Below, piece after piece: positions 9,661 through 37,682 of a stretch of DNA of 64,000 nt. Every line of letters starts with the position of its first letter. Positions within the stretch are counted from its first letter, which is position 1. The position numbers and the translations under genes were made by a program. Under the pieces are notes generated by a model. That model searched no databases, was not told the origin of the DNA, and was given only the letters and a program-made list of their open reading frames with translations. Source of the DNA: Crambe crambe (lineage: Eukaryota; Porifera; Demospongiae; Poecilosclerida; Crambeidae); NCBI GenBank assembly GCA_963924555.1, contig OZ004583.1:5861501-5925500 (forward strand), given 5' to 3'.

Positions 9661-9669
9661 GTGCAGGTT

Positions 9670-11448: not shown

Positions 11449-11462
11449 TCACCGGCCACCAG
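11449..11462 (-). CDS. Unit A exon 15 (tiny terminal exon, tentative)
   Basis: After the acceptor 'ttacatgtacag', CT GGT GGC CGG TGA completes the phase-1 codon and stops. The alternative is read-through of the preceding donor (AAAG gtaactag), giving GN then stop. Either way the Death domain is near the C-terminus. Confidence 0.35.
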
Positions 11463-14400
11463 CTGTACATGTAAAAGAATAAGATATAGCTACAGCTTGA
11501 GGCCCATAACATTATTAGTTTTAGTTCTTTAGGTACATCATTGTAATGATGTGGCGTGTAATTAACCAAGCTATATAATTTATTGGAATAGAATATGCAA
11601 TAGGAATTTACATCTGTTTCATTTACACAGTTAATAATGCACATGTAGTCCCTTGTATCTAGTTACCTTTGGGGTGATTTCTAGCGATTGTACGAGCAAG
11701 ATCATCATCTATACGTTGCACAGCATTTGCCAAAGTCCTCCAATTTGGTCTGCCAAATTTACGCACATTATAATTCTTCTTGAGCCAATCAGCTACAGCA
11801 TCATTAAGAGCCATTTCAACATTTCCCATACGGTTTGCTCTGAATCTTCCGATATTGCCAGGCTTGATCCCAAGTTTTTGTGCAAACACTTCCCACTGGC
11901 CAGCTAGGTCACCTACTTCATCCATTACATCTGCTATATCACTTCTTTCTGCATTATAAATATTACTTTTGACAGATATGTACAGTAATACATAGCTACA
12001 TTATTATTTCAAAAACAAACAAAACAACAACAAACAAAGACAACAATAAAAAAAACACCAACAAAAACTACACAGCTATTACATACTCACTTAATGTTCG
12101 AGTATCAATTTCTTTAACAACATCCTTCCAATCACGATCATCTGCAATAATTATTATTAAGGTGTCAGGGTGAACATAATTATGGAGACAGGCTGACATA
12201 AGAAACCACTTACCCTCTTCTTCTGAAGATTGTGCTTGGTCATCATCTAATAATGGGAACACAGTCAAAATAAGAATTTAGCCTAATTGTGGCCCCCTGC
12301 CCCTCCAGCGCACATGCACTTTATTAGAAGTTGATATACATTACTCCCTCTAGGCGATGAGCTTAGGGCAGAGCTATAATTAAGATGTTCAATTTGATTG
12401 GTCATAAGATTTGGTCAGTCATTTAGTATTCTGTAATACTTTAAAACTCTGAAATTTGGTTGGTCATTTCCAAGAAATGGTTGGAAAGCAGTTATTTTTA
12501 GCTTTGTTAGGGCATCTTTCTTTAGTGGGATGGAGTGCAGAATTAACCTCTGAATCAGACTGCTGACTATTGATAATAGCAGTTCTTCAATAGCACATAC
12601 AACTGTGACCCCATTATTATAATTACGGTTGAAGTCCTTGGATTACTGGACTGCAATCTGAAAGGTGAAATCATGGCTGTAAGCTATATTATTTAAAGAG
12701 ACATGGGGTAGGTGGGTCTATAGGTAAATCTCACATTAGGAAGAAGGGACAGTCCTTATTCATTACATCATGCAATAGTTATAATTACACTAGCTACTGA
12801 CATGCTCACCTTTCTTTGGTCTGAACCAGGATAAGCAATCCTCAGATAAAGCACAGCTCTTGTGCTTACTTTCACAGTACATGATGTAGTCGTCATCCTC
12901 GTAGTCTGGATCTTGGACTTTGTGGGTAGAGGAACATGAATCACACTTGATACAGAAGTAATGTTGGGTCTTCAGACTGTCGTAGTGCAGATCTTTTACT
13001 GAAGATTTGATACTTTTATCGACTATGTTGCGAATATCATTGCATAGATGGCTGATGTGAAGACGACGAGACTCGCAACGAGATGGATGCAAAACGATTT
13101 CTAGAAATGAAGACGAAAATTTGAAACTTACTCTGTCTTTAAAGCGACCAACACTGAAGGATACTTGGTCCCTGAAAATGGAGTCAGGAAGAAGTTCCCA
13201 CTTAAGCTTGCTCTGGACTGTTTTTGAAAGTAAGGTGTTTATTAAAACACCAAATATCCCCTTCGGGCAGTGATTGCATTTGAACCCAATGTAGAGTGCG
13301 GGGATCTTAGAAACTGGTTCAGGTCTTTGAGACGCCTGTACATGGTTAAGGACACATGGGATGAAATACTGGTCTTCTTCATTTTCCAATGAAGTGATTT
13401 GGGATATGATGCGGAGATGGACGAGTAATTTCAAGAATGAATTCGGATCGATGCCATCTTCTGCTGTTATCACTTGCTTGAAAATTGAAGCTGATATAAT
13501 GCCCCTATGCTTAAAATCTGAAAGTTCTTGTCGGTAAAGTCGCTTAGAGGAAAATGTCTCAACAATGAGGTCTGTGACCTTATTGAAAAGCACTTGAGGT
13601 TCTCGTATGACGATATCATCCAAGCCTTTTACAAGAAAATACTTGATCCTTCCAATTCGGGTATGAAGAAATCGCAATAGGTGCTTCACTTGGTCTTTAC
13701 TGATGTCATGCTGAGCAGCTAGAGACACACATTCATCAAAAGAAACAATGCTCTTCTTCAATTTTTCAAAATCAAGGCTGAACAACAAGTAGCTGATCGG
13801 ATAGTCAATGGCAAACTCATCTCGACCAATTACTATTTCACTGACTCGTGATCGGATGCATTCAAAGTCCTCTTCACTCTTGCTGTAATTATCAACAGTG
13901 AACATCAACCTGTTGGATTGCTGATCTGCATACTGAACCAAGTGCTGGTATCCATGCTTACAAACTAAATCGTTCAACTGTCGGTCAATCTCACTGATTT
14001 TCTCTTCAGCATTGGAATCAAGCAGATCCTTGTGTGTGCCTACTATGAAGACAAGAGGTTGGTGGGTCTTGACATCACTTTGGCCAGTTATATCCATGGC
14101 ATCGACACTAGCAAGGCACTGCAGCAGAGCATCCTCTGTGCTGATGGAAGATTCATATGAATTGATAACAGTTCTGTTTTTTTTTCGATATGATATCGTG
14201 AACTTGCTGCAGAGATCTTGATCGATGCGAAAGAGGAAGAAGAATATGGATGGTCCAGATATCAGGAGAGGCACCATCTCTTGGAACTCCACTTGACCAC
14301 CAGTATCAGTCAAGTAAATCGAAAAGGAGTTCTTTAAATACTTTTGAACTCTGTCGTAGCCATATTTACTTATTACCGATGAAATATTATGAATAAGTTT

Positions 14401-17400
14401 TGGTGGAGGCAAGAGTTGTCTCCTGGAGAGATCAGCTTTATCACTTGTTAGCATTTCTAAAGTGACAGAGTCACTGGTTTGACATGGAGTCGTAAAATGC
14501 GATACATGTGGAGATGTTACTGGTTGAAGTGGAACAGTGGATGGTGCAGGAGGAGGCACTGTTCTGGGTGTCATTGTTTTGGGTGTGATGGTTATGCTTT
14601 CCTTGTTCATTTGCCTCACAACAGACACCTCAAACTCGGCTTCGGACCACTCCCCAGCCTTTAGTAGAACTGTAACTGATGCATGTGTGGCAGAAGAATC
14701 TTCTATTCCAACGTCCACTATAATAACAGGCTCACAGACACCAGTGGAGGGAGAGAAGTCCTTTGGGACCTTGCGAACAAGGCGAGTGATTAACGAACTT
14801 TTTCCAGAACCAGGGGACCCTAGAAAGATAGAATGGACTAATTTTCGTTCTATGTCTCCAGATTTGTTGATGGCTTCTTGTACCACATTAAGAAATTCCT
14901 TTTCATCTTGATCAGAATCTACAAGTATAGCAAGAAACCATATCATTCATAATTATTGAGAAAAAACAACAACAAAGAAACAAAACAAAACAACAAACAA
15001 AAAACAAGAAGATGCACGTTAGAAAGCCATTCTCCAAATGCAGCAACAGCATGGAGAGATCATATTAGCTATGACACAGTGAGTCTACAGAATCTGATCT
15101 TTTTATTATCTTCTTCAAAGTTAAGGGGGGGGGGCCTATACCATTTTTAGGTGATCGGACATTTTGGTTCATAGCTCCTTCATACTACCCGCCATGACCT
15201 TGAAAATAGGCTCAAAAGAAAGCTTATTTCATACGCTTTCCAATGAGTATATTTTATACTACCATAGGACCCAACCATATAAGGTTACTGCTGATTAATC
15301 GATCAGCTCTCACTACATAGGCAGCAGGAGCCTAGATTAGTTGTGTGCTGGAATGTCGGCCGGCCTGGTGTATGCAGTAATAATTTTTATCGCTAGCTGA
15401 TTAGTGATTGGGTAAAGTGGGGTTCCACTTGAACCCCTACTTGGCCCGACATGTCACACCAAGAGTTAGGCATCTCTTGGTGGATGAGAAAGTTGGGAGG
15501 AGGGAGGGGAGAAAAGAATATCTTTCCCTGATGGGTCTGGCTATCTAGCTGAGGCTGACTGCTGGATGACCACGTGTCGCTAGTATATAAACCATGGAGC
15601 ATGCAGGATATCCTGCAGGTAGCCCCGCCTATCAATTAACTCCATTTGCTTAACTTTCATTTAAGTCAGACATGACCACGAAACAAGTTCACCACATATT
15701 TGTGGTGGACCTTTGATATTCATTTTATAGGCCTAGCTGCAGTACATGAACTTTTGAACTGAAACCCCCAAAAGAAAGAAAGAAAAAAAGTAAAACATTC
15801 ACGTACTGTAGCTAGGCCCATGGAAGCTATAAAATGAATATCAAAGGTCCACCACCTGCTAGCAAACTTTTATCTGATGAATTATGTTCTTCAGGGTCAA
15901 CAGTCTTTCTTCTTTTTTTCTGGTGACTTGATTTCAGGCTTCTTGATTGCAAGCAGCTTCTCCCACCTGAAAGTGAGCTGACATGGCAATTCTAATCCTC
16001 TAATTCTGCTCAAAAAAGTAAGGAAACAAGAAGGATGGAAATGGGATCAATCTTTGTTCTGTATATCCAGCCAACAATCCCTACATATACGTACATTACT
16101 ACACTATAATCTGAAGCTACCCGACATATATGTAGGGATTGTTAGCTGGATATACAGAACAAAGATTGATCCCATTTCCATCCTTCTTGTTTCCTTACTT
16201 TTTTGAGCAGTGGTCATCCCTACATCTTTTTTTCATTTCACGAAATGCTTTTTCCCTTACTTGTTCATATAATTACATGCTTCAAATAGTGAGGAGAATT
16301 ATATGAATTCCTCCAATGACAGTATTTAATTTGACAGTATCCGAAAGTGCGCAAAATAGTCATGCATGCCAGCTGCTAGATTTAGCATGACCATGAGTTC
16401 TCCAGTTGTGTGAGGAGCCATCATGTCTACAAAAGCGTATGGACTCCAATTCTTGGGAGTGCAAGAAGAGAGATTGATGTTGACAGCGATCCTTAATTAT
16501 GCTGTGAAGAATTTCAGCCGCTTGTTCTCTCTTTCGTATTAGCGATGGATGGCTCGTTCGTTCGTTGCACTATCACAAGCACTTTATCAATGAGGGTTAA
16601 TGGTACTCTATTAACCCAGGTTAATAGGCATGTGGGATGAGCATGTGCACAACTGGGAAGGCTCATGGTTGTGCAATAGGAGTGATACTCAAGCAGTGGT
16701 CAGACTGAGAAGCAGAAGGCAAGTGTAGGATAGCAGAGCCGAAAAATTCACCCACCCGCCCACTTCCTGTGTACCCTAACAAGGCTCGGGTCTTGTTAGG
16801 ACCAAGTGCTGGGCACAGCATGGGTATTCACCACCCAACATGTCTCATCCAAGGTGAACTTAAGTAGCATAAAACAGGACGGGGTGGGGCATGACCAAAT
16901 AATTATAGCAACCACATCAGTTGCTAAGGGGACAGGGACATTGAGCCCCGTGCCCAGCACAGGTCCCAATCCATATAATTAGATTAGAAAAATGGTATAC
17001 TATATCGTAGGCAAGTAACATGATATATTTTATAAAATCATACACCCTCATCTGGATGTTTTGAAGGAGACGTAGACCATGTTCTACATTGAAATTATAA
17101 GAACAGTAAACTTGCTTCATGACAAGTTCAGATTTGTACCCTTGAGCCTGGTATCCAAGCAATAGAAATGCAAACATTTTCTCCCAATAAGTTGAAGTTG
17201 ATTAGTGTGTTGACCTGCTTTGAAACATTAGTTAGCTTGTCCTTTAATCAACACTCTATCAGCTGTGTGGGTAGCATGATGCTTTCTTGATTTTTGACTT
17301 GTAGATTTAGAAATAAATGCTTTGTTCAAGAGTTACAGTACCTTATGCTTACCTCAAAGACTGCTGCGATAAATTAAGGAAGGGAAATCTGTGTGTAACT

Positions 17401-20400
17401 ACTAATGAAGTAAGCCAGTAGACTTCTAACTGACATGAGAGTGTGGCAAAGCTAAGAAGCAACTGTCTATACAGTGGCATAGGAAGACGATTTAGAGACC
17501 CCCAGGAAAGTTTAGGATTTTAGGACCTTTCAGATTTAACCTGATTTTAGTCATAAGAAGTGAAAATATGAAGAAGATGTAAATTAAGCTCTCAAATTAC
17601 CAAGTTGGACAGGCCCTTATGGGGTAGTAACTTGTTACCACATACACAATATTCACATACCATACAGCAGGATAATTTTGGTGGGGATAAAAATTCGGTA
17701 ATTTCGTATCTATCGAAATTTTTTCTATTTCCCACCGTTTAGATGTTCGTACATTCAACCATGGCACTATACGTAGAGCTAGCTAGATTCCATCAATTAA
17801 GAAGTTGCCACGATCATGAAGAGGGCTATACCTGAAGAAATGAAGGCCAAAAATTAGTGTGTAAGCCAAGTGAAAAAGAAAATTCAGCAGCTGTGAAGCG
17901 AATTCCGTAGATATTGTTGTACCGTACCAAATAAAAGACTACCATAATTCTTCATCTGTATTTATCCTTTGATGATTAACGAAATATTTTATCTCCGAAA
18001 ATAACCCGCTGTACGGTACAAAATTCATAAAACTTTCTGTACATAATATGCACAGTATGTGAAACGTAATGAAACCATGCATGACTGTAATAGCAGCAAC
18101 ATTACCCCTTTAAGTTTCAATGCTAATAGGCAGTTATTGGTGTGTGTAAGTCTCACCTTGTACATACTTGGTGGTCACATCCTCAGCAAGTGCATCATAA
18201 TCTGCATACCTGAGTGCACTGGCCAATCTCACCCAATCAATAGCAGGGTTAAGACGCACCATGATCTCAGCTAAGGCTTGCTTTGGTGTAGTACTCTCAC
18301 TGGACTTGATTCTTTCCATTAGCGATATAGATAGATATCGTGCCACTTCCTCCCAATCGTCCACTTCCTCCAACACCTTGTTTATTCTCTCAATGCTGAA
18401 GTTGGAATCTGTCAATGATGAAATGAAGATGTACAGGTATAATTATTCCAACATGATTACTCAAAAACTAAGTGACTATCCCATGCATTGTAGAATGAGA
18501 ATTAGAATAGTATTGTGCACATAGCTACACATCATACATGAGTCAATAAATTTCCCCTACAGCATGTGCACACCTGTACTGATCATTCTGGCTATAGCTG
18601 TAATGGATCACTAAAAACAACTAACTCACCTCTAGTACAATAATCACAAGCTTTAATGGCCACATCTATTTCCTTGATCTCAACTACATCTCCATAGAGA
18701 GCAATCGCCTTCCAAGTAGGCTGATCTGGATGGCTATTGATGTAACACATGGCAGCTACTTTCACTTGCTGCTCCTCACTGGGTATACAGGACTCAATAC
18801 GCTCCATTAGATAGTAGAATGGTTGGTTGTTATTGGAATCTTCCACATTGTATATAATGTGCAATGGTGACTCCTCTGCACTCATCAGTACAGTCGTCAG
18901 GTTCTCAACTGTCATTGTGGGGTCTGCAGGGGAAACTTGATTACAGCTAGAACTGAATGGAAATAATGACCTATGACACAATAGCTACTTTAATCACTTA
19001 AAGGGAATTGTCTATGGAAGGGATAGTTTGTGTCATGAAACCATAGAGTCATTTTGGATTCCACTGTATCCCATATGAACCATACACTGCAATTTAGTTG
19101 CTATGGCATGTACACATGCTATTGAGATCTTACAACTCTAACAAAGCATGGAAAGGGTTTTAATAGAGGGTACAAAGTTGAATTCAAGCGATCCATATAC
19201 ACTGTTTGAGAATAAGTGTGTTCTAATTGTATTGCAGCCATACAGCTAGCTGATGGGATGTAATAGTTGACAGAGTCAGTCACTATGAAATGGAAACAAG
19301 TTCCATCAGTTTACACTCAACACTTAATACAGTTCTTAAAATAGTCCAGCTATATGTACTATAATGGGAGGGGTTAAGTGAGAATCTGAGAATACAATCA
19401 TCTAATGTATCAATCTGGCTGAGCCAATTACAAAAACTCTGAGGAGTATGCCATGGGTAGAATCTTAATAAAGATATTAGCTAGCACACAGTCAGTCAAT
19501 TAGTCTAAAGTTAGGAGGAGAGGTATGTGTGTGATGGAATAGGGGATTTCCCCTAAATTACCTGTCACTAGCTCTGCAAAGTTTCTGATGCTGTCAGCAT
19601 ACTTGCAATGCCCATGTATATCCATTCTGCTTATGAGTTGTCTCCATGTAGTGATAGCTTCAGCAGTCAGGAATTCGTCCAAAGAGTAGTAGTAGTTTTC
19701 ATCATCCTCCAGGAGTACATATTTCTGCACATTCCCAACAGAGAAATCTGATCCTAAAAGAGAATAATAATATTACTTAGTCGGGATTCTAAGCATGCAA
19801 TGTACGTATGCAGGGCCTAACTTTTTAAAACTCCAGGAACTATAATTCTAAGTGTCAGTTCTGATATTAGATAAGTATGAATGCTATTAATGCTACTATT
19901 ATTATGCATATGAGAAATTTTATAGGAATCCCATTCCTTAGGTTATATAGGCTAATGAGATTCTAGTGGCCACATGGTCATACCAAAAAGTTAAGTCCTG
20001 ATATAGTCCAATTAGATTTCACTTGGTAAGTCAAAAGACAACTCAAGAGTTTCTAAACCATGATTCCTGGATCCTATATGGATCATGTCAATACTACTAG
20101 AATTTCTTACACTGTTAGCTTACAAAGTATCAACAAGAAATGTATCTCTCACCATTAGGAAGGTACTTTGATGCCTGTTCAGCTGCAATCTCCTCCCCAC
20201 AGTGAGACAGTGCTGTCACCACATTCCCCCAGGTCACATAGGGGCACACATGGACTAGGTGATGAACGAGGGCTCCTTTCTGATCGTGAGTAGACTTGAT
20301 CTGTGATATAGTATGGTCATCGATCCCCATGTACTTTGATATGGTCTCCCAGTCCTCCACCTCCTTTAATATCTCACTTAACAACTCAGCAGTAAATGTT

Positions 20401-23400
20401 GGATCTGCTAAGAGGAAAAGTAGTCTCAAGTGTATGCCCAGGAACAGTGATGACTACGTATGTCGTACTCATCACTTTATTTATATGTATCATATAGCAC
20501 TAAATTTTCATGGTTTTGCAATAGAAGTGTGAACCTCTAATTATTTTGCAATACCACCAAATCTGCAAAAAAATTACCCCATGAAAAATTTCTGCAATAT
20601 GGTAGCTTACTGTCCCCTGACCTTTTGAGAAGTTAGTCATGGCACTCTCAGCAGCCTTCATCTCTCCAACTTCATAGAGCAGTAGGGATAATAACTTCCA
20701 AGAGGGACAACCATGACTGGTTATGTAAAGAGAGGCAGCAGCTCGTATCTTCTCCTCTCCACTTAGGGATGAGATGCGGGAGCAAACTAACCAAGGACAG
20801 CCACCAATAGAATACTCCTGATTCTTCAGCACTGATGACACATCTCCCTCTATCTGCATGAGTACTGCTGCTACATTCTCTACACTCAAGGTGGATTCTA
20901 CAGGAGTAAACACAGCATGTTGCATGACATGGATCATAAAGTACAACCATGCAGGTTAGGTGCTATTCAGATGGCTGCATGTATGAATGAATCACACTCA
21001 TCAAGACTTAGTGAAGTCTGCATATGCTCATCCAGTCATCCTTGTATGTCTCATGCAAACATTTCTCATAAGATAATGCATGGAGGTAAAGTATAGAGCT
21101 CATAAAGTTCATTTTGTGTAGCATTTTATTTTTAAGGAGCAAAACTTTTTTAAAACAAATACTCAAATCTTCCTACCAGTGCCACCTGGCTGGATACTGA
21201 TACTAATTGTCAGTACTGAATCTGCAGTTGATTAATCTTGTCACTGTTAATTAATCAGCCTTGCCATTTTCATTCTGGGTGCACATTATTTAGAGTACTG
21301 TGCAGCAATTAGCTGGATTGATATTTGATACAAATCTGGCAGGCATAGAGGCTGAGTTTTAAGTATGGTGAGCATAAATTGACTATAGTCAGAGCGGCAA
21401 GAAAACCAGAACACACAAACACATATGTATGAATATAGCCTGCTGCATAAGGGGTAGGTGCCAAGATTTGTTAAAATACTAGATGGTCAATCTGCAAAAG
21501 TTGTACAGTGGAACCTCCAATAAAGGACCCTCCAAGAAAAGGACAACCTCCCAACAAAGGATGCTCTTTTGGGCCCCTTTCCCATAGCATTAGTACATTT
21601 TTAACCTCCGAGAAAAGGATGCAAAAACAAAGTGGCTGATCCCAAAGTGTCCTTTACTCGGAGGTTCCACTGTAATGAAAATTGAGCTCCTCCATTATAA
21701 ATTACTATGTAGTATCTATAGGTGGGCATTAATATAAGGGGCAAAATAAAGTTATCTTGGCAATGGACTCTTCCAGATGATCATCACCCTGACATACTTT
21801 AAACAATGTTCAAACTTATGCAACTTTCTCAGGACTTCAAGCTAAAGTCAGGTCACACACATCAGGTCACACACAGAGAGACCTGAACTCTGAGCTATAA
21901 TAATATCAGCTAACAATACAGTCATGCATGATGATCATACCTTGTGGTGGCTCAGCAAACTTTCTGATGTTATCAGCAACAATCTGTGGTCCTTTATATG
22001 AAATGTAGACTTCCATCTCATCAAGGGCCCAAATAAGTCTCCTCCATGAAGGAAGTACTCCCTTTCCTGCTAGCCAGGCTCTGAGAACCAATTCAACACT
22101 AGATGCAGGAGCATCTTCCACTGCTAATCGTTCTTCCAATGATGCTGTATCTATCTCCAGTATTTGTGGGATGTACTTGGTGATGTTAGGTAGAGTCAAC
22201 TGTGGGACTGCATGGGAACACAAAATAGTAGAACACATGATCACTACATGTGCCAGTCAGAACATAATACCAGACAGTTCACCATTGCAGTGCATACCAT
22301 GGTTAGTACATCACTGCTCACTAAACATAGGGATAGTACATTACTACACACTGTACTTCACTCCACACCATATAGGAATAGTACTTCAGGATTTTATGTG
22401 GGGGGAGGAATTATAGGGAGGTTTGTGAGGTTATAGGGGGGCAGGAAGTCTTGATGTCACTATTATTTTAGACCTTGGTTACATGTGATTTGTGTATGTA
22501 ATATTAGCAAGTTTAACTTTGATGTGTGTACACTGAAAGTATGTGCAACACATTTACATAGTTCTCTTGATACACACCCCTAAGGAAGATATGGGATCAT
22601 AACTGCATGACAAGGAGATGCTGAAGAACCTGAACACTTTAGCTAATATCAGTCTTCTATTGTTGTTGGAATAGAAAGACAGACCACAGATGAAGATAGA
22701 GAAAACTCATTTACTGAGAGAAAAAATCTTGATTGAACTTATTAATGAAAATAGCTAGTGATAGAACTAACAGATAATGATTTAGAATAAGATGTATGGA
22801 TGTATGGAATAAAAGGAAGACTAGTTGTGTGATTCTACAAGGGGACAACTGAGGGGAGAAACCCTCTTGAAAGAAACCCAGATCACTACACACCATATAG
22901 GGATAGTACATCACTGCACACCATATAGGGATAGTACATCACTGCACACCATATAGGGATAGTACACCATATAGGGAGACTCTCAGCTCTTCCAATTATG
23001 AGCATTTCAGGTGACTCTTAAATAACAAAGCTTTATAACTTTTAGGGAAGTCATGAACATAATTGGTAAAATACTTCAAAAAAATTAAGTGATAATTTTA
23101 TCAACCACTTACTTTGATCAGGATGGACTGGTGTCACCACTTGGAACACAGGACGAGGAGGAGGAGGAGAAGGAGGAGGAGAAGTAGGAGATTGAGGCTG
23201 AGGAGGAGGAGGAGGAGGAGGAAGAGTGGAAGTACGGGAGGTCTCAGGTGTCATATTTAGATGGGGTGTGGTTAGTGGAGTGATGTTTGGTGATGGTGAC
23301 ATCAGTGATGGAGTGACTGGAGGTCTTGGGACTGATAAAACCTACAAATAATTATGGTAAAACAGAAACTTGAATCTTCCTACTTGAATGAGGTAACTAT

Positions 23401-26400
23401 TCCTACTTCACTCCCTTTATATCTCATCATGGGAATGAAGTAGGCTTGTAGTTGGTGATGGGTAAGGGGTTACTTGACTGAAGTTCACTCTCTTGTTGCT
23501 GAACTTTTTTGAACCGCACACAGCCATCCCTACTTCTCTTTTTATTTAGAATAACTTCCTTTATATAGTATGGAATTAACCACCATGGCTCCACTACATG
23601 AATATGATCTGATTACTGGGAGTGTGCAAGCAAATATAAGTAGAACTCTACTAGTTTAGCACACACAAGCATGTACGTAGGTGGTCTGACAGATGTATCT
23701 ATTTCAAAAGTATTGAAGTGGGTTATAACTTTATACCCCTCCCTCCCGGACTTTTGTAAGGGGTTTAGTGAGAGACCAGGTAGGTGTGGTTGGCATCTGA
23801 TGCCTGTGGGTATATATGTAACTACTGGACATGAAGTCTATTCCCTATACATAGGTGGTGGAACAGGTCAGGCCAGTCAGGTATATATATTGGAATAATA
23901 TTATATTTTATAATGACCAATATTTTGAGTTAATTAATATATTATGTTAAATTCAGTCAATAACAAAAAAAAAAGTGTCTAATGATGCTTGAATATGACA
24001 AATTGTACTCTGACTATAGGAGCTAATATTGTGGAAAGCATTTTAGAACTAAAAATCATATGTCACAAAAATCACACATTGGTAAGCAATTGTACTTGTA
24101 AGAGAAGGTGAGCAGCCAATCTCCACAAAATAAAGAGAGGTGACACATTAAAACTGCATAATGTGTATAGACCAGTGAGCTAAATTCCTAATTAGAGCAC
24201 ACCAATATTTTAAATAAAAGGGGGGCTAAGGATTCTTATGCTCCCTAAGATGTGTTCAATTTTGGAACGCATTAACCAATTCCTTGCTTGAGTCATGCAA
24301 GTAATTTCCTTTGATCCTTATTGCATGGTGTGGGTCTGAAATTTGCTGTGGGGAATGAGAATCTTTGAGCATGCATAACTCATGAATGTAGTCTTATTAG
24401 CCCAAACTTGGATATTGTCAATATGCAAACTGTCATGCTTACCCTTGGGACCTGTTCTGATTAGAGGGGTGGTCTCATTTTGTGGGTAGATTTGTGTTGG
24501 AAATAACTACTTAAATATTGGGACATTTACAAGTGACCTTATAGGGTGGTCTAATTTCCATGGTCAGATTAGAGGGAGTTTACTCATGCTACAAAAACCT
24601 TTGTAACATGAACATGATCCAGTTTATTAGGAGTATAAAAATACATGTACTTACAAAGACTCGGTCATGGCCAACACAATGTATGGGACTTCAGAATGTT
24701 ACCTTATCTACATCTAAGCATACATAGCATAAAATTAACCACCATTGTCTGTCTTTAAGTCATCGTTTTTGCTACATGAATATGATCTGATTACTGGGAG
24801 TGTGTCAAGCAAATGCAAATATAAGCAGAACTCTACCATTTAAAAGTTTAGTCACACACAGTCATAAGGTGGTCTGACATTATATAAATGACTATCTTAT
24901 TTCCACACACTGAGAAGCTTATCTCCCACAGGTATGCAGTTGGTCAGATTGAAGTGGGTAGAACATGAAATCAGACTTTGCACATTAAAAGCCTATTATG
25001 CTATCCTCCAATGCTTTTCAAATCTCCCTGTTATGCTCCAGATTATGCTCCCACACTTCACATGTCATACTTAATTTATAACACAATAACAAAATCACAA
25101 TAAGAACAAAAAACATATTTAGTGCCTCATTATAGTAACATTGTTTCTATGGAATCCTCTAAAGGTCAAAGGTGCTTATTCAACCAACAAGTTGGACATC
25201 AGTATCACTCACATCACTAGCTGATTTTCATGCACAAAAAACAACAACAACAACAACAACAACAAACAAATGAAACAACAAAACAAACAAACAAACAAAC
25301 AAAAACACCCTATCATTGCAGCATTATGCTTAATGCTTCAGCATACTTATTATGCTCTAAGTTATGCCGGCATATTGTGCAAAGTTCTAGCTACAGCTGC
25401 AGGATTTGGTTATAAAGGGTATCACCTTGTCCACAAGGGACCTTATAGGGTGGTCTAATTTACCGTGGTCCAGATTAGAGGGAGTTCACTCATGCTACAA
25501 AAACATTCAGTTTATGAAGAGTATGAAAATAAATGTACTTACAAAGACTCAGTCATGGCCAACACAATGTATGGGACTTCAGAATGTTACCTTATCTACA
25601 TCTAAGCATACATAGCATAAAATTAAGTCTTTGTAGTAGTGTATGCTCCAAGAACCTTTGCTACATGAATATGATCTGATTACTGGGAGTGTGCAAAGCA
25701 AATATAAGCAGAACTCTATCAAAGTTTAGCCACACACAGTCATAATATAATAATTATGGGACTTAGGGAATTTCCCCACTTCCATATACATGGTCACACT
25801 GAGAAGCTTATCAATCCCACAAGTATGCAGGTCATATTGGTCAGATTGAAGTGGGTAGAACATGAAATCAGGGCTATAACTGCAGAGACCATATGGATGA
25901 CCAGTGAAGTGGGGTGCGTGACCTACCTGAGGTGGGTGTGGTTGGTGTGAAGGATGCATGTGAGCCGTAGGAGGACATGGGTCTGGAAGGATAAAGAGTA
26001 GACAAAAGAGGTTGTCTCTATGATAATAATAACAAAATTTGTGTCCCATTAAGCAAGAATTTCTCCAATTACTGTGGACTTTGACCTTACTAAGGCCCAG
26101 AGCCTCTTCTAATAAAGTAGTAAAAACCACACCCAATAGCTACACCCACCTGTTCATTTAAGTTTAATAAGGTGGCAGTACAACTTATTTTTGGCACAGT
26201 AATAGAATAATCCCTACACTTTGTTTAGCTACATTTTGCTCAATCTTAGGCCAGGCAAAGTCGTCATCAGACACTTTTTTTAAACCAAAATCTAACCCAA
26301 TAAAGCCCTATTTTGTGGACATGGCTCCTTTAGTCAGAGAAGTGTTGAGGAATACATTTTTTTTAGGTCTCACCTTCAAGCTTCAGTTGTTTAGTATGAG

Positions 26401-26953
26401 GTCCTTCAGTTTGATCAACCTCTAAATCAGGAAATGATAACAAATTGGTAACTAACGGTAGATATGAAGCCCTTCTAGTCCACCACACAGGAAGAAAGGA
26501 AGTGATTATTGATACTTATAGCATTGTCAGTAGATTCACTGTATAGTTAACTAATAAAAGGGATGAGGCTATGTGATCTCTCTGACTATCCATCATAGCC
26601 TATGGAGTATTGTAGTCACAAACAACATTCCACAAACAGCTAATACCTTTATCAGCTGCTCTAGTCTTAGTCTTGGGTCCAGGGTTCACTTCCACGTCCC
26701 CAGAGAGTAACAGGATACCCATCAGGAACCAAGTTGGCCTGCCTTTTCCTCTGGATCCTGATCTTTCTCCCACTACCCTCCTCCATAGTCTTGTCTTCCT
26801 AAAGTAGCCGTGCAAGAGGTGTTTGACAGCTACATCATAGCTTGTCTTGTTGTTGACCTGCCACTCCCCCTTCCATTCATCATCACACCACTGTCGCAGC
26901 AGAGACACACAGAGACCAATCAAAGCAAAACGAAAGAAGCAAGACTTAGACAT
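11449..26953 (-). CDS. Unit A: 2A - Pro-rich - six death-fold - Roc-COR - Death gene (15 exons)
   Basis: Fifteen exons with GT/AG ends join to 4662 nt, about 1553 codons plus stop, with no frame break. Order in the protein: hydrophobic N-terminus and 2A-like motif; short acidic and Pro/His linkers; Pro-rich exon; six death-fold-like modules; Roc GTPase plus COR plus Cys-rich tail in one 2.1-kb exon; two short acidic exons; a Death domain. Roc-COR domains bind GTP and dimerise; Death-fold modules make homotypic contacts in apoptosis and immune signalling. A role as intracellular receptor or signalling hub is inferred. If the 2A works, the ribosome releases the N-terminal peptide and makes the rest as a separate cytosolic chain, so two fates from one mRNA are possible. 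Exon joins are by eye; transcript data are needed. Confidence 0.75.
11667..11948 (-). CDS. Unit A exon 14: C-terminal Death domain
   Basis: A 282-nt exon, phase 1 to phase 1. The peptide begins RSDIADVMDEVGDLAGQWEV, then FAQKLGIKPGNIGRFRAN, ADWLKKN and GRPNWRTLANAVQRI. The W at helix 1-2, LGI, the helix-5 W, and the PxWRxLxxAL ending are the usual Death-domain landmarks. It is about 93 residues, the normal domain size. Equivalent exons are at 29778-30032 (B) and 39978-40253 (C), all after the Roc-COR exon. Confidence 0.8.
12091..12141 (-). CDS. Unit A exon 13: short linker
   Basis: 51-nt phase-1 exon between 'tattgcag' and 'gtgagt', encoding DDRDWKDVVKEIDTRTL. It may complete a helix preceding the Death domain. 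Confidence 0.6.
   Translation of the reverse strand: MIVIGRMLLKKLILEH
12214..12246 (-). CDS. Unit A exon 12: acidic micro-exon
   Basis: 33-nt phase-1 exon between 'tattag' and 'gtaagt', encoding DDDQAQSSEEE. Units B and C carry different short acidic micro-exons at this place (30623-30661, 30515-30553 and 40741-40767). A remnant of the exon at 30264-30326 is visible at about 12626-12659 but breaks phase. Confidence 0.6.
12810..14918 (-). CDS. Unit A exon 11: Roc-COR GTPase exon
   Basis: One 2109-nt exon, phase 1 to phase 1. Counting from 14946, the P-loop GSPGSGKS is at about residues 43-50, DTGGQ (G3) at 214-218 and THKD (G4, the form seen in Roc domains) at 304-307. A COR-like part follows: SIVSFDECVSLAAQ, then LLRFLHTRIGRIKYF, IREPQVLFNKVTDLI and HRGIISASIF. 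The tail has Cys pairs (FCIKCDSCSSTHK, CESKHKSC). Between G1 and G3 lie about 165 residues where Roc domains usually need 40-50; the excess is Pro/Thr/Ser-rich. GTP binding is expected from the intact motifs. No LRR is attached, unlike LRRK-type ROCO proteins. The acceptor 'acttgtag' is shared with unit C. Confidence 0.85.
15702..15855. mobile_element. 154-bp foldback MITE
   Basis: Left arm 'gtggtggacctttgatattc' onward to 'cagtacatga' and right arm 'tcacgtactg' to 'ggtccaccac' are inverted repeats with small mismatches. The loop is A-rich and there is no coding content. Confidence 0.7.
16006..16210. mobile_element. 205-bp MITE with ~85-bp inverted arms
   Basis: Left arm starts 'ctgctcaaaaaagtaaggaa' and the right arm ends 'ttccttacttttttgagcag'; the arms are nearly perfect complements in to 'tccctacata'. 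This is a recent-looking palindromic element with no ORF. Confidence 0.8.
18157..18408 (-). CDS. Unit A exon 10: death-fold module 6 (gamma type)
   Basis: 252 nt, phase 1 to phase 1. The peptide starts DSNFSIERINKVLEEVDDWE, then IDWVRLASALRYADYDALAE. Length and the W-x(2)-L-x(2)-AL ending fit a Death domain. Closest in-gene relative is exon 7 (DPTFTAELLSEILKEVEDWE). Near-identical copy in C at 48296-48553, degraded copy in B at 33427-33726. Confidence 0.75.
18630..18923 (-). CDS. Unit A exon 9: death-fold-like module 5 (beta type)
   Basis: 294 nt, phase 1 to phase 1. DPTMTVENLTTVLMSAEESP opens it, with MERIESCIPSEEQQ, PTWKAIALYG and AIKACDYCT later. It resembles exon 6 (ESTLSVENVAAVLMQIEGDV). 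The fold is inferred from the PTWK ending and helix-like spacing; it is the most divergent type. C copy at 48765-49067. Confidence 0.65.
19562..19753 (-). CDS. Unit A exon 8: short death-fold-like module 4 (alpha type)
   Basis: 192 nt, phase 1 to phase 1. Contains YSLDEFLTAEAITTWRQLIS and ADSIRNFAELVTG, the latter matching the end of exon 5 (DNIRKFAEPPQG). Shorter than a full Death domain (about 64 residues), so it may be a partial fold. C copy at 49716-49913. Confidence 0.65.
20153..20404 (-). CDS. Unit A exon 7: death-fold module 3 (gamma type)
   Basis: 252 nt, phase 1 to phase 1. DPTFTAELLSEILKEVEDWE, then ISKYMGI and VTWGNVVTALSHCGEEIAAE: W, LGI-like and W-x(2)-VxxAL landmarks of a Death domain. 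C copy at 50329-50580 differs by few residues; B copy at 37382-37640 carries a 22-nt deletion. Confidence 0.75.
20622..20897 (-). CDS. Unit A exon 6: death-fold-like module 2 (beta type)
   Basis: 276 nt, phase 1 to phase 1, donor AAAAG|gtcagg. It was chosen over the nearby gtaagc because only this donor keeps frame, and because the B copy preserves it. ESTLSVENVAAVLMQIEGDV, RISSLSGEEKIRAAASLYIT and CPSWKLLSLLLYEV are seen. C copy at 50798-51073. Confidence 0.7.
20898..21940 (-). other. Intron 5 of unit A
   Basis: Non-coding; contains the 'cagtggaacctcc' MITE at 21506-21672. Nearly the same sequence, MITE included, is at 51074-52093. Confidence 0.6.
21506..21672. mobile_element. 167-bp Tc1/mariner-type MITE, TA flanks
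   Basis: Ends 'cagtggaacctcc' and 'ggaggttccactg' are exact inverted repeats, flanked by TA on both sides (21504-21505, 21673-21674). It is internally foldable. The copy at 51640-51816 is at the same place of the duplicated intron, so insertion predates the duplication. Confidence 0.8.
21941..22207 (-). CDS. Unit A exon 5: death-fold module 1 (alpha type)
   Basis: 267 nt, phase 1 to phase 1. PQLTLPNITKYIPQILEID, VELVLRAWLAGKG, LPSWRRLIWALDEMEV and DNIRKFAEPPQ. W-x(n)-PSWRRLxxAL is Death-domain-like. C copy at 52094-52336 is eight codons shorter between WAL and DNIRKFAEPP. Confidence 0.7.
22208..23112 (-). other. Intron 4 of unit A
   Basis: Non-coding apart from a minisatellite (22883-22975). 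Collinear with 52337-53351 in unit C. Confidence 0.6.
22883..22975. repeat. 28-bp minisatellite, three copies plus a partial
   Basis: The unit 'acatcactgcacaccatata' + 'gggatagt' repeats head to tail. The paralogous intron in unit C (53003-53205) has seven copies plus a partial; degenerate single copies lie nearby at 22315-22385 and 38535-38590. Confidence 0.85.
23113..23341 (-). CDS. Unit A exon 4: Pro-rich linker
   Basis: 229 nt, phase 0 in and phase 1 out, donor gtaagt. VLSVPRPPVTPSLMSPSPN and several long Pro runs, closing with VFQVVTPVHPDQ. Low complexity; a likely flexible spacer or SH3/WW-type binding tract. The C copy (53352-53418) keeps both ends but lacks 54 codons in frame. Confidence 0.75.
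23342..25926 (-). other. Intron 3 of unit A
   Basis: Non-coding. An inverted element related to 61330-61470 lies at about 23400-23545. The segment 24057-25926 is collinear with 61797-63599 in unit C and partly with 664-1603 in unit D. A CAA/AAC tract is at 25238-25305. Confidence 0.6.
25927..25982 (-). CDS. Unit A exon 3: Pro/His linker
   Basis: 56 nt, phase 1 in and phase 0 out. DPCPPTAHMHPSHQPHPPQ. An identical exon is found at 63600-63655. Confidence 0.7.
26374..26421 (-). CDS. Unit A exon 2: 48-nt acidic/basic linker
   Basis: Acceptor 'tgatttag', donor GAAG|gtgaga, phase 1 at both ends, encoding EVDQTEGPHTKQLKLE. Its D counterpart (about 4355-4403) has lost the donor. Confidence 0.65.
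26647..26953 (-). CDS. Unit A exon 1: start codon, hydrophobic N-terminus, 2A-like motif
   Basis: ATG at 26951-26953; 102 codons plus one base, donor AAAG|gtatta. MSKSCFFRFALIGLCVSLLR gives a short hydrophobic segment behind a positive residue (signal-like). A basic region (RKTRLWRRVVGERSGSRGKG) follows, then TWFLMGILLLSGDVEVNPGP, the complete DxExNPGP 2A signature with its hydrophobic lead. Ribosome skipping would occur between the last Gly and Pro, releasing about 95 residues. Sea urchin NLR genes are known to use N-terminal 2A sequences as conditional signal peptides; the same use here is inferred. Confidence 0.75.
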
Positions 26954-29552: not shown

Positions 29553-29777
29553 CTGGAATAATGCATTATGGCATGCAAGTGACATCAAAGAATCTTAGCT
29601 ATAATATTAGTTGAATTTTATAGTGCCATATAGCTATAAAAAAATTCTATAATAGTGCCCTATGAATTGTTTGGCTCTTCCATAATAGCTAATTATATTA
29701 TGAGTCTGATCCTCAAATTAAACTAAATGAGTAATATTTTTATGATTGCAGCCATATTCACTCCAGAAGATACTCAC

Positions 29778-30032
29778 ATTTCTCAATTTTTCCTGCTACT
29801 CCTTTGAGTTTGATTTTCTCGAGAGCATTTATCAAACTGGCCCAAGTGGGTTGACCACTGGTGGCAACAACATTGTCAGCGCCATTTAGCCATCCTTCCA
29901 CTAAATCCTCACAGAGCATAGTCATCTTCTTGAGATTCGACCAAAGCAATCCCAGAGCTGAACCAAGTTTAAGAAGCTCTTTGTTAGTCAGGTCAGATAG
30001 GTATTCAGTCACTTGAAAGTGGTCTTTCATGC
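29778..30032 (-). CDS. Unit B Death domain exon
   Basis: 255 nt, phase 1 to phase 1. MKDHFQVTEYLSDLTNKELL, LGSALGLLWSNL, LVEGWLNGADN and QPTWASLINALEKIKLKGVA: a Death domain with LG(xx)LG and PTWxxLxxAL landmarks. It is intact as an exon, although the unit upstream is broken. Confidence 0.75.
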
Positions 30033-30263
30033 CTACATACAAAACAATCAAAGCTACAGTAAAGAGTTTGAGGTACTAGAAGTCAATACTTTACTCCTCT
30101 AGGTGATGCATATAAAGTATCATCATGTGGTAGAAATGCAAGACTTAGACTGCACAACTCAATGACATAGAGTAGGTAAGGGATAGTCACACAACACACA
30201 AATCTGGTAAAGGGGTTCACCACACTGTATCTTGAAATAACATGGCTACACTATTATAATTAC

Positions 30264-30326
30264 CAAGAGTAGTATTCAGAACTGATGGTTGAAGTCCTTG
30301 GATTGCTGGACCTGGCTCACTGCAAT
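30264..30326 (-). CDS. Unit B linker exon
   Basis: 63 nt, phase 1 to phase 1, DCSEPGPAIQGLQPSVLNTT. The C homologue at 40476-40517 is 42 nt; the A homologue is decayed (about 12626-12659). Confidence 0.6.
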
Positions 30327-30514
30327 CTAAAGGTGAAATCATGGCTGTAAGCTAGCGTCCTTAAGTAAAATCATACTTAAAGAGACAAGGGGTGCGTGTA
30401 TAAGGCTCACGGATAACCTTTCTTATTTGATCCCTTAATCTGACTATACTAGCACATGGATGAAACATGCACCTTAGAATATTGAGTGAGGTATCTAGCT
30501 ATCCATAATGTTAC

Positions 30515-30553
30515 CTTTTAAGGAATCACTCTTTCCACACAATTTTTCATCCA
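30515..30553 (-). CDS. Unit B acidic micro-exon 2
   Basis: 39 nt, phase 1 to phase 1, VDEKLCGKSDSLK. Tandem duplicate of the next micro-exon. Confidence 0.6.
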
Positions 30554-30622
30554 CTGAGGAAAATAAACAGCATAGGTGTAACTATTATACCAAGCTATCG
30601 ATGGCTATTGTAAAAATAATAC

Positions 30623-30661
30623 CTTGAAACAAATCACTTTTTCCACACAGTTCTTCATCCT
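30623..30661 (-). CDS. Unit B acidic micro-exon 1
   Basis: 39 nt, phase 1 to phase 1, EDEELCGKSDLFQ. Paralogous with 30515-30553 and with the 27-nt C exon at 40741-40767 (ENEEICGEI). Confidence 0.6.
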
Positions 30662-30807
30662 CTGAAAATATAAATATTACAGATAATTATTCTTTGAAAA
30701 GGATAAAGAGGAAAGGAATATTTGGGATATAACTAGATGTCTTTCCAAAAAAAAAAAAAAAAAAAAGAAAGTTAGCTACGTACTGCATAGCCCTACACTA
30801 TACATAC

Positions 30808-32992
30808 CTTTTTGTTGGAACCAGACTAGATTGTCTTCAGATAAAATACAGATCTCGTGCTTTTTACTGTAGTACATGAAGTAGTCTGCTTGCACCCAGC
30901 CTCGATATTTGACACGATGATTCGATGAACACAGTTCACACTTGCAACAAAAGTAATGTTGGACCTTGCCACTGTCGTAGTGAAGATCTTTTACTGAAGA
31001 ATGGATGCTCTTCTTGATAACTTTACGAACATCGTTACATAAATAACTGATGTGAGCATGTCTTGATTTGTGTCCAGATGGATGTAGAATTACTTGCAAG
31101 TGGGATGCAAAGAATTTAAGAGTCACTCGATCTTCATAGCAACCGACACGGAACGATACTTGGTCCCTGAATATGAAATCTGGAAGAAGTTCCCATTTGA
31201 GCCAGCTTTTGAGAGTAGTAGTGAGCAAGGTGTTGATTAAAACACCGAATATTCCCTTAGGACTGTGATTACATTCGAACTCAATGTAGAGTGTGGGGAT
31301 ACTGGATACTTTGTCAGGAGTTTGTGACATCTGGACATGATTAAGGACACATGGGATGAAATACCGGTCTTCTTTATTTCTTGATGCGGTGATTTGGGAT
31401 ATGATGCGGAGATGTACCAGTAATTGCAAGAATGAATTTGGATCGATGCCATCTTCTGTTGTTACCACTTTCTTGAAAACTGAAGCTGAAATGATGCCCC
31501 TATGCTTAAAATCTGAAAGCTCTTGTCGATAAAGTCGCTTAGAGGAAAATGTCTCAACAATGAGGTCTGTAACTTTATTGAAAAGCACTTGAGGTTCTCG
31601 TACGACGATGTTATGCAAGCCTTTTACGGGAAAATACTTGATCCTTCCAATTCGGGTGTGAAGAAATCGCAATAGGTGCTTCAATTGGTCTTTACTGATG
31701 CCATATTGAGCAGCTAGAGACACACATTCATCAAAAGAAACAATGCTCTTCTTCATATTTTCTAAATCAAGGCTGAACTGCAAGTAGCTGATTGGATAGT
31801 CAATGCCAAATTCATCTCGACCAATTACTATTTCACTGACTCGTGATCGGATGCATTCAAAGTCCTCTTCACTCTTGCTGTAATTACCAACAGTGAACAT
31901 CAACCTGTTGGATTGCTGATCTGCATACTGAACCAAGTGCTGGTATCCATGCTTACAAACTAAATCGTTCAACTGTCGGTCAATCTCACTGATTTTCTCT
32001 TCAGCATTGGAACCAAACAGATCCTTGTGTGTGCATACGATGAAAACTAGAGGCTGATGGGTCTTGATTTCGCCTTGGCCAGTTATATCCATGGCATCGA
32101 CACTAGCAAGGCACTGCAGTAGAGCATCCTCTGTGCTGATGGAAGATACATACGAATTGATAATTGTTCTGTCTTTTTTTCGATACGATATTTTGAATTT
32201 GCTGCGGAGATCTTGATCGATGCGAAATAGGAAGAAAAATATGGATGGTCCAGATATCAGGAGAGGCACCATCTCTTGGAACTCCACTTGACTACCAGTA
32301 TCAGTCAAATAAATTGAATAGGAGTTCTTTAGATACCTTTGAACTCTGCTGTAGCCATATTTTCTTATTACAGATGAAATGTTCTGGATTGATGGTGGAG
32401 GTGGTGGTTGCAAAAGTTATCTCCTTGAGAGATCTACTCCATCACTTGTTAACATTTCTGAAGTTGCAAAGCCACTGGTTTGACATGGATTTGCAGACTG
32501 TGATACAAGTGGAGATGCTATTGGTTGAGGTGGAGCAATCGTAGTGGTGCTAGTCTGCACTGGTGATGCACTCTCACTAGCAGTGGATGGTGCAGGAGGA
32601 GGCACTGCTTTGGGTGTCATTGTTTTGGGTGTGATTGTTATGCTTTCCTTGTTCATTTGCCTCACAACAGACACCTCAAACTCGGCTTCAGACCACTCTC
32701 CAGCCTGCAGTAGAACTGTAACTGATGCATGTTTGGCAGAAGAATCTTCTATTCCAACATCCACTATAACGACAGGTTCACAGACACCAGTGGAGGGAGA
32801 GAAGTCCTTTAGTTCTTTGCGAAAAAGGCGAGTGATTAACGAACTCTTTCCAGAACCAGGAGAGCCTAGAAAGACAGAATGTACTAATTTTCGTTTTATC
32901 GCTCCAGATTTGTTGATGGCTTCTTGAATCACTTTGAGAAATTCTTTTTCATCTACTTCATCCTGACCAGAATCGTGGTCTCCGAAGGTGTA
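30808..32992 (-). pseudogene. Unit B Roc-COR exon, disrupted
   Basis: Very close to the unit C exon over its full length, but disabled. At 32417-32419 a CAA codon reads TAA (single change at 32419). The G3 motif is DTGSQ instead of DTGGQ (change at 32293). G4 is preceded by Cys (VCTHKD), and one tail Cys is Tyr (MYYSKKH). At the 5' end the similarity to C stops at the exon edge (around 32992) without an acceptor: 'accttcg' replaces 'cttgtag'. After the stop the frame stays open to the donor at 30807, so the decay is recent or the rest is under gene conversion. Confidence 0.8.
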
Positions 32993-33426
32993 GTGGATGT
33001 TCAGTAGCTAGGCAGGAATCCAGAGTCTGTATTCAATGTGTATAACTACTTACTCCACATGCTTCATACTAGAAAAAGGTGAACAAGCTACTCATTAACA
33101 GGTTTCCTCGGCCCATTTCTTGTTTCGTTTATATCAACAGGAATTAACTAGCTACATTCAGCAAGACTAGATCTTTGAGGGCGTGTCTCAACTAGCTATG
33201 GGCATGCATGCGCCAATGGCAGGAGTTTAAAATATTTTTTCTATTTCAGTGATAACTACTACTCTAATAATAAAGTCTATAGTTAATTTAAATTAGTTGC
33301 AGGTGGTTGATCAGCTCTGGGGAGGTCACACATCATGCTGTAACGAGAAAGGAATTATAATTATAGGACTATCATGACATCTGGGAAGCTTCCATAGGTA
33401 GCTATGCTCATTGGAGCATGGTTTGG
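32993..33426 (-). other. Rearranged junction with a terminal-exon remnant
   Basis: At 33272-33337, after a good acceptor (tcgttacag), CATGATGTGTGACC... GATCAACCACCTGCAACTAA resembles the unit B terminal exon but stops after HDV. It sits between the death exons and the Roc-COR exon, where no terminal exon is expected. Confidence 0.5.
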
Positions 33427-33720
33427 TCAACAATTAAAGTGTTGTATGTATATAGTCTCACCTTTCACATACTTGGTGGTCACATCCTCAGCAAGTGCAT
33501 GGTAACCTGCATCACTGAGTGCCCTGGCAAATCCATCCCAATCAAGAGCAGGGTTAAGGTGCACCATGATCTCAGCCAGGGTCTGCTTAGGTGCAGTATT
33601 CTCACTCGACTTGATTCTGTCTATTAGTGATTCAGGAAGAGAGAGAAATAGTGTAACTTGATCCCAATCTTCCACTTCCTCTAACACCTTGCTTATTCTC
33701 TCAATGCTGAAGTTAGAATC
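33427..33720 (-). pseudogene. Unit B death-fold exon, gamma type (copy of exon 10)
   Basis: DSNFSIERISKVLEEVEDWD and IDRIKSSENTAPKQTLAEIM, open and with matching splice signals. The exon itself is intact but lies in a broken unit. Confidence 0.6.
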
Positions 33721-33897
33721 TGTCAATGATGAATATGAAGATTACTCTCATCCTCTCATCTATTCGTACATACAGGTTTAGTTTTAGTAAAGTGAGCACT
33801 GTATTAATAGTGGGGGAATATTATAGTATTTTGCACATAGCTACATGAGCTGCACTGCTATGCATGCCTATTGTAATGGATCACTAACGATTAACTG

Positions 33898-34165
33898 ACT
33901 CACCTTTAGTACAATAATCACAAGCTTTAATGGTTGCCTCAACCTCTTGGGCTCCGAGTGCTTCTGTAGCAATATCCTTCCAAGTAGGTTGCTCCGGATG
34001 GCTACTGATGTAACACATGGCAGCTGCTTTTGCTTGCTGCTCCTTGCTGGGTATACAGGACTCAATACACTCCATTAGATTGAGAAATGGTTCAGTGTAA
34101 TTAATGACGACTCCTCTGCACTGGTCAGTACTGTTGTCAGGTTCTCAACTGTCATTGTGGGTCTA
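33898..34165 (-). pseudogene. Unit B death-fold exon, beta type (copy of exon 9), frameshifted
   Basis: The start has ACCCACAATG where units A and C have ACCCCACAATG, a one-base loss that brings TGA into frame. Part of the first helix region is also deleted. The C-terminal half (CIPSKEQQAKAAAMCYISSH) is recognisable. Confidence 0.65.
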
Positions 34166-34465
34166 CAAGGACACAATTCTAATAATGGTCTATGTGGTAA
34201 CTTGACTAATGCACGCAAAACACTTCATAACTTTCATAACTTTTAGTGAGTGACGAGAAGTAAAAAACTAGTTCACTATAGAATAGATAGTAATATTAAC
34301 TAGTTACTACAGTCTTTATAATAGGGGATGATGATTTGCTAAGACTGAACCAAATACACAAGCTCTGAGGAGGATGTAGTGCATATGTAGGTATCTATTA
34401 TATAGCACATGCATAGCTGGGAGAGGTCGAATAGTTATAGTATAAGGGGATTTCCCCTAAATTAT

Positions 34466-34624
34466 CTGTCACTGGCTCTGCAAATTTTCTGATGCTGTCA
34501 GCATACTTGCAATGCTCATCTGAATCTATGAGTTTTCTCCATGAAGTGATAGCTCTAGTGGTCAGGAATTCTTCCAAAGAGAAATGAGCACCCCAGTCAC
34601 CCCACATTCTCAAAAGAGAAATCT
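34466..34624 (-). pseudogene. Unit B death-fold exon, alpha type (copy of exon 8), frame broken
   Basis: SLEEFLTTRAITSWRKLIDS and ADSIRKFAEPVTDN match exon 8. From the acceptor at about 34625 the phase-1 frame meets TGA, so it cannot join in frame. Confidence 0.6.
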
Positions 34625-34728
34625 AGAATAATAATAATTGTAGTAACTAGCGAGTACCCGCAGAAACTCTGCGCACGCCTGCGCCCGCAAAAACTCTACA
34701 CACGAATGTGTGTCCATTCACTGGCATT

Positions 34729-35050
34729 GAGTGGCTTGCAATCTGGGATTGTAATCAGGAGACTATGAGATCAAGTCCTACCAGTGACATATGTGAAGGG
34801 TACAAGTTATCAAGTAAAGTTCTATTAATTTTGCAAGGGCATTATCATGTTAGATTCTACCAATTGTAATGTGCAAGATTTAAGCGAAATTTAATTGTGC
34901 GAATATTTTGATTTTAACTTGTACCCTTCACATTATGGTGTTTATTCTTCCTTTTCACATGCATTAATTTGTAGTGAGTCTGACCCACCCAACTGAAAAT
35001 AGGTACCTGGAGTCTAATCAAACTGGTTCAGTGGGACTTCAGGTGCCCAC
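34729..35050 (+). mobile_element. tRNA-derived SINE
   Basis: An A-box-like 'gtggcttgcaatctggga' at about 34731 and B-box-like 'agatcaagtcc' at 34768-34778 are spaced as in a tRNA, followed by a tail with 'aaaataggtacctgg', a word I know from sponge and other invertebrate SINEs. Non-autonomous, Pol III-type. Confidence 0.5.
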
Positions 35051-36440
<1,390 letters not shown>

Positions 36441-36869
36441 TTCTCCCCTTCTTCCTCACTCTGTGTCCACTACTCGAAATTGACTGCACTATAATCCTTT
36501 ACCTTTAACTCGACATGTTCAAAAATAGCATGTCATTTTCCAACTTGCTAGCTTTCAACCTACAACGTGGCAGATATTTTTATGCCCCACCCCATACACA
36601 TGATTCTTGGACCTTGACCTTGCAACTGACTATAATTATAGTGAGCATCCAGTTGCCTATAATAGAAATATCAATATTTGATTTTTTTTAAAGGTATTGC
36701 AAATCAGATATGCTATTGTTGTTTTTTTGGTTTAGTTTTTTGTTTTTGACTGAATTCTGATAAGATATGTCAGCCAGTGAGAAAGAGTATGAGGATAACT
36801 AGCAAGAGAGAGCAGAGAAATGAAATAGCATGCTTGACAGAAGATGAAAGAGCAAGAGAAGGAGAGAGC

Positions 36870-37620: not shown

Positions 37621-37682
37621 CTAGGAAGAAAATCAAGTGTTAACTTTAGATTCAACTACTCATTACTTTATATGTACCCTGA

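Follow-up and report, generated by a model that had tools for sequence, protein, structure and literature searches.

The 64,000-nucleotide stretch of the genome of the sponge Crambe crambe analysed here (the window; C5:5861501-5925500 of the 143-Mb genome, where C5 is contig OZ004583.1) carries on its minus strand a predicted gene that runs from an ATG at 26953 to a TGA at 11449, with 13 exons joined in one frame of 1515 codons. All 12 introns of the model are of the GT-AG type and lie in phase 1, and the exons encode, in order, a 2A leader, a Pro-rich linker, six modules (d1 to d6), a Roc-COR GTPase unit, two small linkers and a Death domain, followed by a 14-nt end (Table 1). A preliminary description had predicted this order (2A, six death-fold modules, Roc-COR, Death), which is borne out by both the exon model and the copies described below; its end points also fit, but it had counted 15 exons and about 1553 codons, and no exons beyond the 13 were located. 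The anatomy as modelled is, in our judgement, highly probable. The ends of the model are its least secure parts: exon 1 lies 3.3 kb from its neighbour, the small linkers are read from a single gene, and the 14-nt terminal exon appears to be the weakest element of all.

The six modules form a duplicated triplet of types A, B and C, with d4, d5 and d6 aligning to d1, d2 and d3, respectively, at hhalign probabilities of 94 to 96% (Table 1). The earlier claim that all six are death folds stands in part. By their Pfam matches, the type C modules and the alpha-type terminal exon are Death domains: the cut-off of 22.6 bits is passed in paralogs by d6 of copy c6 (29.0; 48551-48297), by the terminal exon of c6 (26.1) and by that of the relative L030 (24.9), and the Death scores of the present gene (19.7 to 21.4), as well as that of c6 d3 (17.9), lie under it. 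When compared with solved structures, the d3/d6 profile reached FADD at no better than E 0.2, behind THO complex subunit 1 (E 0.014) and amid unrelated chains. The type B modules are predicted to adopt a death fold, and a search of d2 by Foldseek on its own yielded nothing significant. Type A modules give a helical prediction of low confidence, and their fold is unproven.

Within the Roc-COR exon, COR lies directly C-terminal of Roc: COR-A scores 36.6 bits (cut-off 35.3) and Roc 20.1 bits (under its cut-off of 27), and the G1, G3 and G4 motifs are present in Roc in that order. Judged by this defining tandem, the gene is a ROCO gene. The Roc-COR sequence matched no ROCO structure, only Rho-like and P-loop proteins with E values of 0.37 or worse. 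Kinase and ankyrin domains were not found in the 10 exon open reading frames scanned, and the gene is therefore not an ortholog of DAPK1; neither is it an NLR, since NACHT was matched by a P-loop fragment only (E 0.063) and LRR was absent among the families listed. The P/S/T-rich insert of Roc, between G1 and G3, varies in length; by eye, it occurs several times over in the database protein P0001, and it is partly duplicated in copy c8 (at C5:5980.7 kb).

Downstream of Roc-COR, an alpha-type Death exon is found in this gene, in c6 and in c8. As these three exons, together with that of L030, served to build the alpha hidden Markov model (HMM), their own scores against it are no test; the remaining six copies have a beta-type exon at the same place, which this HMM recognizes with E values of 5e-4 to 0.019, and the one beta exon scanned has no Pfam Death match. 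A Death-like exon would on this basis follow Roc-COR in nine of nine copies, only three of which are secure.

Table 1. Exons of the ROCO gene and further copies in the window (window positions)
Feature	Position	Strand	Description
Exon 1, 2A leader	26647..26953	-	ATG, hydrophobic segment CFFRFALIGLCVSLL, basic middle, SGDVEVNPGP, donor AAAG/GT in phase 1
Exon 2, Pro-rich linker	23113..23331	-	Phase 1-1; same edges and stop-free in 3/7 copies (c2, c3, g1; c1, c6, c7 and c8 left out, alignment not clean)
Module d1, type A	21941..22207	-	Low-confidence helical prediction; hypervariable patches
Module d2, type B	20622..20897	-	Six-helix death fold predicted; patch 20820-20776
Module d3, type C	20153..20404	-	Death-like, 20.7 bits (cut-off 22.6); almost invariant between copies
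Module d4, type A'	19562..19753	-	Short, 63 aa, hypervariable; hhalign vs d1 95%
Module d5, type B'	18630..18923	-	Hypervariable; hhalign vs d2 94%
Module d6, type C'	18157..18408	-	Death-like, 19.7 bits; hhalign vs d3 96%
Roc-COR GTPase exon	12810..14918	-	702 aa; COR-A E 5e-9; P/S/T-rich insert between G1 and G3
Small linker exon, acidic	12214..12246	-	33 nt, phase 1-1; sequence of this gene only
Small linker exon	12091..12141	-	51 nt, phase 1-1; read from this gene alone
Terminal Death exon, alpha type	11667..11948	-	Pfam Death 21.4 bits (cut-off 22.6)
Last exon	11449..11462	-	AGGR (partly shared codon) and TGA; in-phase AG acceptor, sequence only
Second copy, c6	39967..53412	-	Pro-rich 53.4, d1-d6 52.3-48.3, Roc-COR 43.5-41.3, Death 40.3 (kb)
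Third copy, c5	29761..38625	-	Modules decayed; weakly Death-like beta exon downstream

Nine copies of Roc-COR lie in 264 kb around the window. Eight of these, including the decayed c5, are preceded by modules in the same order; in the ninth (c9), the modules lie past the edge of the stretch examined. In the seven copies other than c5 and c9 (this gene included), all 42 module exons are stop-free and have AG/GT flanks; each is a multiple of three nucleotides long, and lengths differ between copies exclusively by such multiples. The edges of the Roc-COR exon, read directly, comprise a TTGTAG acceptor in eight of nine copies (not c5) and a GT donor in all nine. The copy comparison thus lends good support to the earlier proposal of one gene with this domain order within an expanded tandem family. 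The leader of c6 falls outside the window, at C5:5926589-5926888; c5 has stops in five of its six aligned module exons, has lost several splice sites and has one stop in its aligned Roc-COR exon. Two copies, c1 and c7 (7324-22936 and 175515-191187 of the array), are almost identical over the leader and several modules, indicating a recent duplication within the array.

Across these copies, Roc-COR and the leader are constrained and the modules are hypervariable. Omega is about 0.31 for Roc-COR (P 3e-46; seven sequences, with c3 and c5 left out of the codon count) and about 0.40 for the leader (P 2e-4; five array copies, among them two near-identical pairs); for the pooled modules it is 1.03, from 81 synonymous and 276 nonsynonymous changes (Fisher versus Roc-COR, 2e-16). 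Variable positions cluster in d1, d2, d4, d5 and d6 (permutation P 0.0002-0.049; borderline in d5, P 0.049, and d6, P 0.044), and do not cluster in the almost invariant d3 (P 0.60). The patch of d2 covers its second and third predicted helices, and d1, d4, d5 and d6 have one early and one late patch each. Synonymous changes are also raised inside the patches (0.54 versus 0.11 per site), where omega, at 1.21, is not significantly above 1 (P 0.11). Positive selection in the modules is not established by either the pooled (P 0.43) or the patch value, and, therefore, we call them hypervariable only. Intron divergence between the modules (0.01-0.08) is lower than the synonymous distances of d1, d4 and d5 (0.14-0.17), but not than those of d2, d3 and d6 (0.015-0.067). 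Perhaps, the patches, kept in frame, are fed by conversion or exchange; selection for module diversity is possible.

The same observations can be read as a few working copies among decaying ones, with modules that are weakly constrained and drift, and a hypervariability that stems from decay and gene conversion and has no part in recognition. A module omega of about 1, the raised synonymous changes in the patches and the broken c5 all fit this, as do relict pieces of d6 that follow c3, where they are divided between two frames, and c9, where they contain two stops. Drift would, however, leave stops and frameshifts of the kind seen in c5, whereas the 42 module exons keep their frame and splice sites and vary in threes; moreover, Roc-COR is under strong purifying selection. 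We regard this explanation as rather unlikely.

The linkage of leader, modules, Roc-COR and Death appears clearest in relatives elsewhere in the genome. In L030, a span of 4.5 kb holds the leader, two PDZ matches (40.3 and 23.7 bits), a COR-A match that stays under its cut-off (32.3 bits) and a Death match (24.9 bits). At three loci (L031, L032 and L037), the leader is joined in phase 1 to a Death exon over a 52-nt GT-AG intron, and in L029 leader and Death (E 6e-9) share one open frame of 251 codons. L049 (230-3352 of C8:8141401-8144900) combines, in a single 1041-codon frame, COR-A (32.2, under cut-off) with Ig I-set and Death matches that both pass their cut-offs, the placing of the I-set matches between COR and Death being an unusual mix. 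L033 has, after its leader, a pair of similar exons with no Pfam match and then a COR, 4.7 kb from the leader. The phase-1 modules differ within the family: two A-B-C triplets here, PDZ or Death in relatives. At 9 of the 36 COR loci entered (from contigs picked by the analyst), a scored Death match follows on the same strand in the next 5 kb, with none upstream or on the opposite strand; 13 of 36 leader matches have a scored COR downstream on their own strand, no more than 25 kb away, with none (0/36) when the orientation is flipped; and for 10 of 17 scored array COR loci a leader is nearer than the next upstream COR, in nine of these within 25 kb. With the same parts so close together, or even in one frame, in relatives, it is unlikely that the death exons and Roc-COR belong to separate mRNAs.

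It could nonetheless be that the leader, the string of death modules and the Roc-COR-Death part are transcribed separately or in alternative combinations, such that the full 1515-residue chain is rarely or never made. Introns of 3.2-3.3 kb stand at exactly these joints, many leader matches have no scored COR, and in c8 the modules are about 12 kb from Roc-COR; set against this are the compact L030, the continuity of phase 1 over 12 introns and the leader-Death joints across 52 nt in three loci, and we consider such a division unlikely. In one cluster on C5 (9012600-9050200; L029, L031, L032 and L037, with a leader also in L038), leader and Death are joined in four of the five loci examined, and no scored COR lies within 25 kb downstream of its leaders; this cluster may represent a 2A-Death branch within the family.

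In the genome, 36 places match the leader exon, 28 of them on C5. The motif D[VIM]ExNPGP is kept in 23 of the 25 examined (one with DME; absent in L047 and L048), and 22 of these 23 have the AAAG/GT donor and, likewise, 22 have an in-frame ATG (L037 does not; the start of L046 is unrelated). In the present gene, DVEVNPGP fits the D(V/I)ExNPGP motif of 2A (StopGo) leaders, and 92 residues separate the start from the skip site. That the exon is a retrotransposon remnant unconnected with the gene, as could be supposed from the 2A sequences carried by non-LTR (non-long-terminal-repeat) retrotransposons (PMC4981915) and from another 2A type at window position 5749, is very improbable given the few matches, the retention of motif, frame and ATG, the purifying selection on the leader and the Death or PDZ exons that follow it in phase, although no search was made for reverse transcriptase beside the copies. 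This second 2A type (LLLILAGDVETNPGPG; window 5306-5749, minus strand, and C5:6012334) lies in an open frame of 148 codons, for which a search gave no recognized partner; it is possibly another leader family or the N-terminus of a mobile element. A leader search of the protein collection returned 12 proteins, of which at least four (P0026, P0028, P0029 and P0034) match loci of this genome by eye, and the hits therefore establish neither a transcript nor a second species.

Genome-wide, 149 of the best 150 of 339 COR-A candidates score over the cut-off, each match being a place in the genome and not a proven gene. The spliced model, compared with the protein collection (7984 candidates scored), found 22 proteins, all labelled COR-A, at 38-52% query coverage; the five of these examined have no leader. 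One database protein of 1526 residues (P0002) appears by eye to hold two tandem Roc-COR units in one frame. At L001 (C13:7355557 region), the frame reads LRR-Roc-COR-kinase by eye and resembles LRRK, so a classical ROCO type seems to be present beside the expanded ones. The Death profile gave 965 first-look candidates, and all of the best 150 scored over the cut-off; there are groups on C15, C16, C17, C18 and C21, and some lie in open frames of more than 2000 codons.

On balance, we lean towards the view that the gene belongs to a large, exon-shuffled ROCO family of sensors or adaptors that has multiplied in tandem, in which the GTPase would gate death-fold assembly and a 2A leader would choose the compartment. 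Proteins with Roc-COR are controlled by GTP and dimerize. Here, Roc-COR would be the nucleotide switch, at the position that NACHT occupies in NLRs. Depending on its bound GTP or on dimerization, it would expose the death folds, which could then seed homotypic assemblies that signal in cell death or defence. The 2A leader would yield two products from each mRNA: a skipped, cytosolic form lacking the leader, and an unskipped form carried by the hydrophobic leader to the membrane or secretory route, as for a sea-urchin NLR leader. The specificity of a given copy for its partner or ligand may be set by its hypervariable patches. As a whole, this mechanism (switch, assembly, dual products and specificity) is tentative and somewhat less likely than not. 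An immune or cell-death role for the family is plausible from its domain content, expansion and hypervariability, and its members may be sensors for immunity or self-recognition that are peculiar to their lineage. A bolder version, which we think improbable, makes the death-fold string a variable recognition barcode whose patches determine co-assembly or ligand, with Roc-COR as the gate and the leader dividing the products between cytosol and membrane; were it true, ROCO GTPases and death folds, in place of LRRs or Ig domains, would form the basis of an immune or allorecognition repertoire in an animal.

The proposal that the architecture was undescribed survives for the combination and not for its pairings. 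DAPK1 has the order kinase-ankyrin-Roc-COR-Death (PMC12365538) and shares with the present gene the C-terminal Death after Roc-COR, but it has kinase and ankyrin where we find a 2A leader and six modules. Trichoplax, with at least 17 ROCO genes, has ROCOs that carry death and CARD domains (PMC4104024), and in the actiniarian gene NG3 the domains kinase, Roc/COR, Death and TIR occur together (PMC5094078); early animals thus also joined Roc-COR to Death-superfamily domains, although the portions of these two accounts available to us mention neither a 2A leader nor a repeated string of death modules. The TRADD-N/Death expansion of Amphimedon is likewise a large sponge expansion, with N-terminal units of one to three Death-like domains and variable partners; it is built on a TRADD-N core, and Roc-COR and 2A are not named in the available part of its account (PMC8195603). 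Brown algal ROCOs, proposed to be immune receptors and numbering 9-47 genes per species (PMC11378527, which also gives four ROCO genes for human), resemble the present family in expansion and exon shuffling, but the shuffled exons there encode LRRs, in contrast to the death-fold or PDZ modules here. If the COR-A matches are genes (150 of 339 candidates were scored), the sponge would have the largest ROCO expansion of these, against 4 genes in human, 17 or more in Trichoplax and 9-47 in brown algae. Among the open-licence papers listed by the searches, we found none that describes a 2A leader together with Roc-COR-Death and with either PDZ or death-fold triplets in repeat; the swapping of modules and the scale were likewise not found described. 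The many natural variants of the family also offer a natural series on how death folds keep their specificities apart.

A parallel in overall design exists with the sea-urchin NLRs that bear N-terminal 2A leaders, one of which was shown to undergo skipping and to target the exocytic pathway when unskipped (PMC4981915). Both families are expanded and place an N-terminal hydrophobic leader with D(V/I)ExNPGP before Death and an NTPase; the sea-urchin proteins have NACHT-LRR and a leader of 26 residues, whereas the sponge gene has Roc-COR and the longer stretch to its skip site. The sponge gene thus resembles the sea-urchin design of 2A leader, death fold and NTPase switch, rebuilt around Roc-COR, which makes a role for Roc-COR in signalling assemblies testable.

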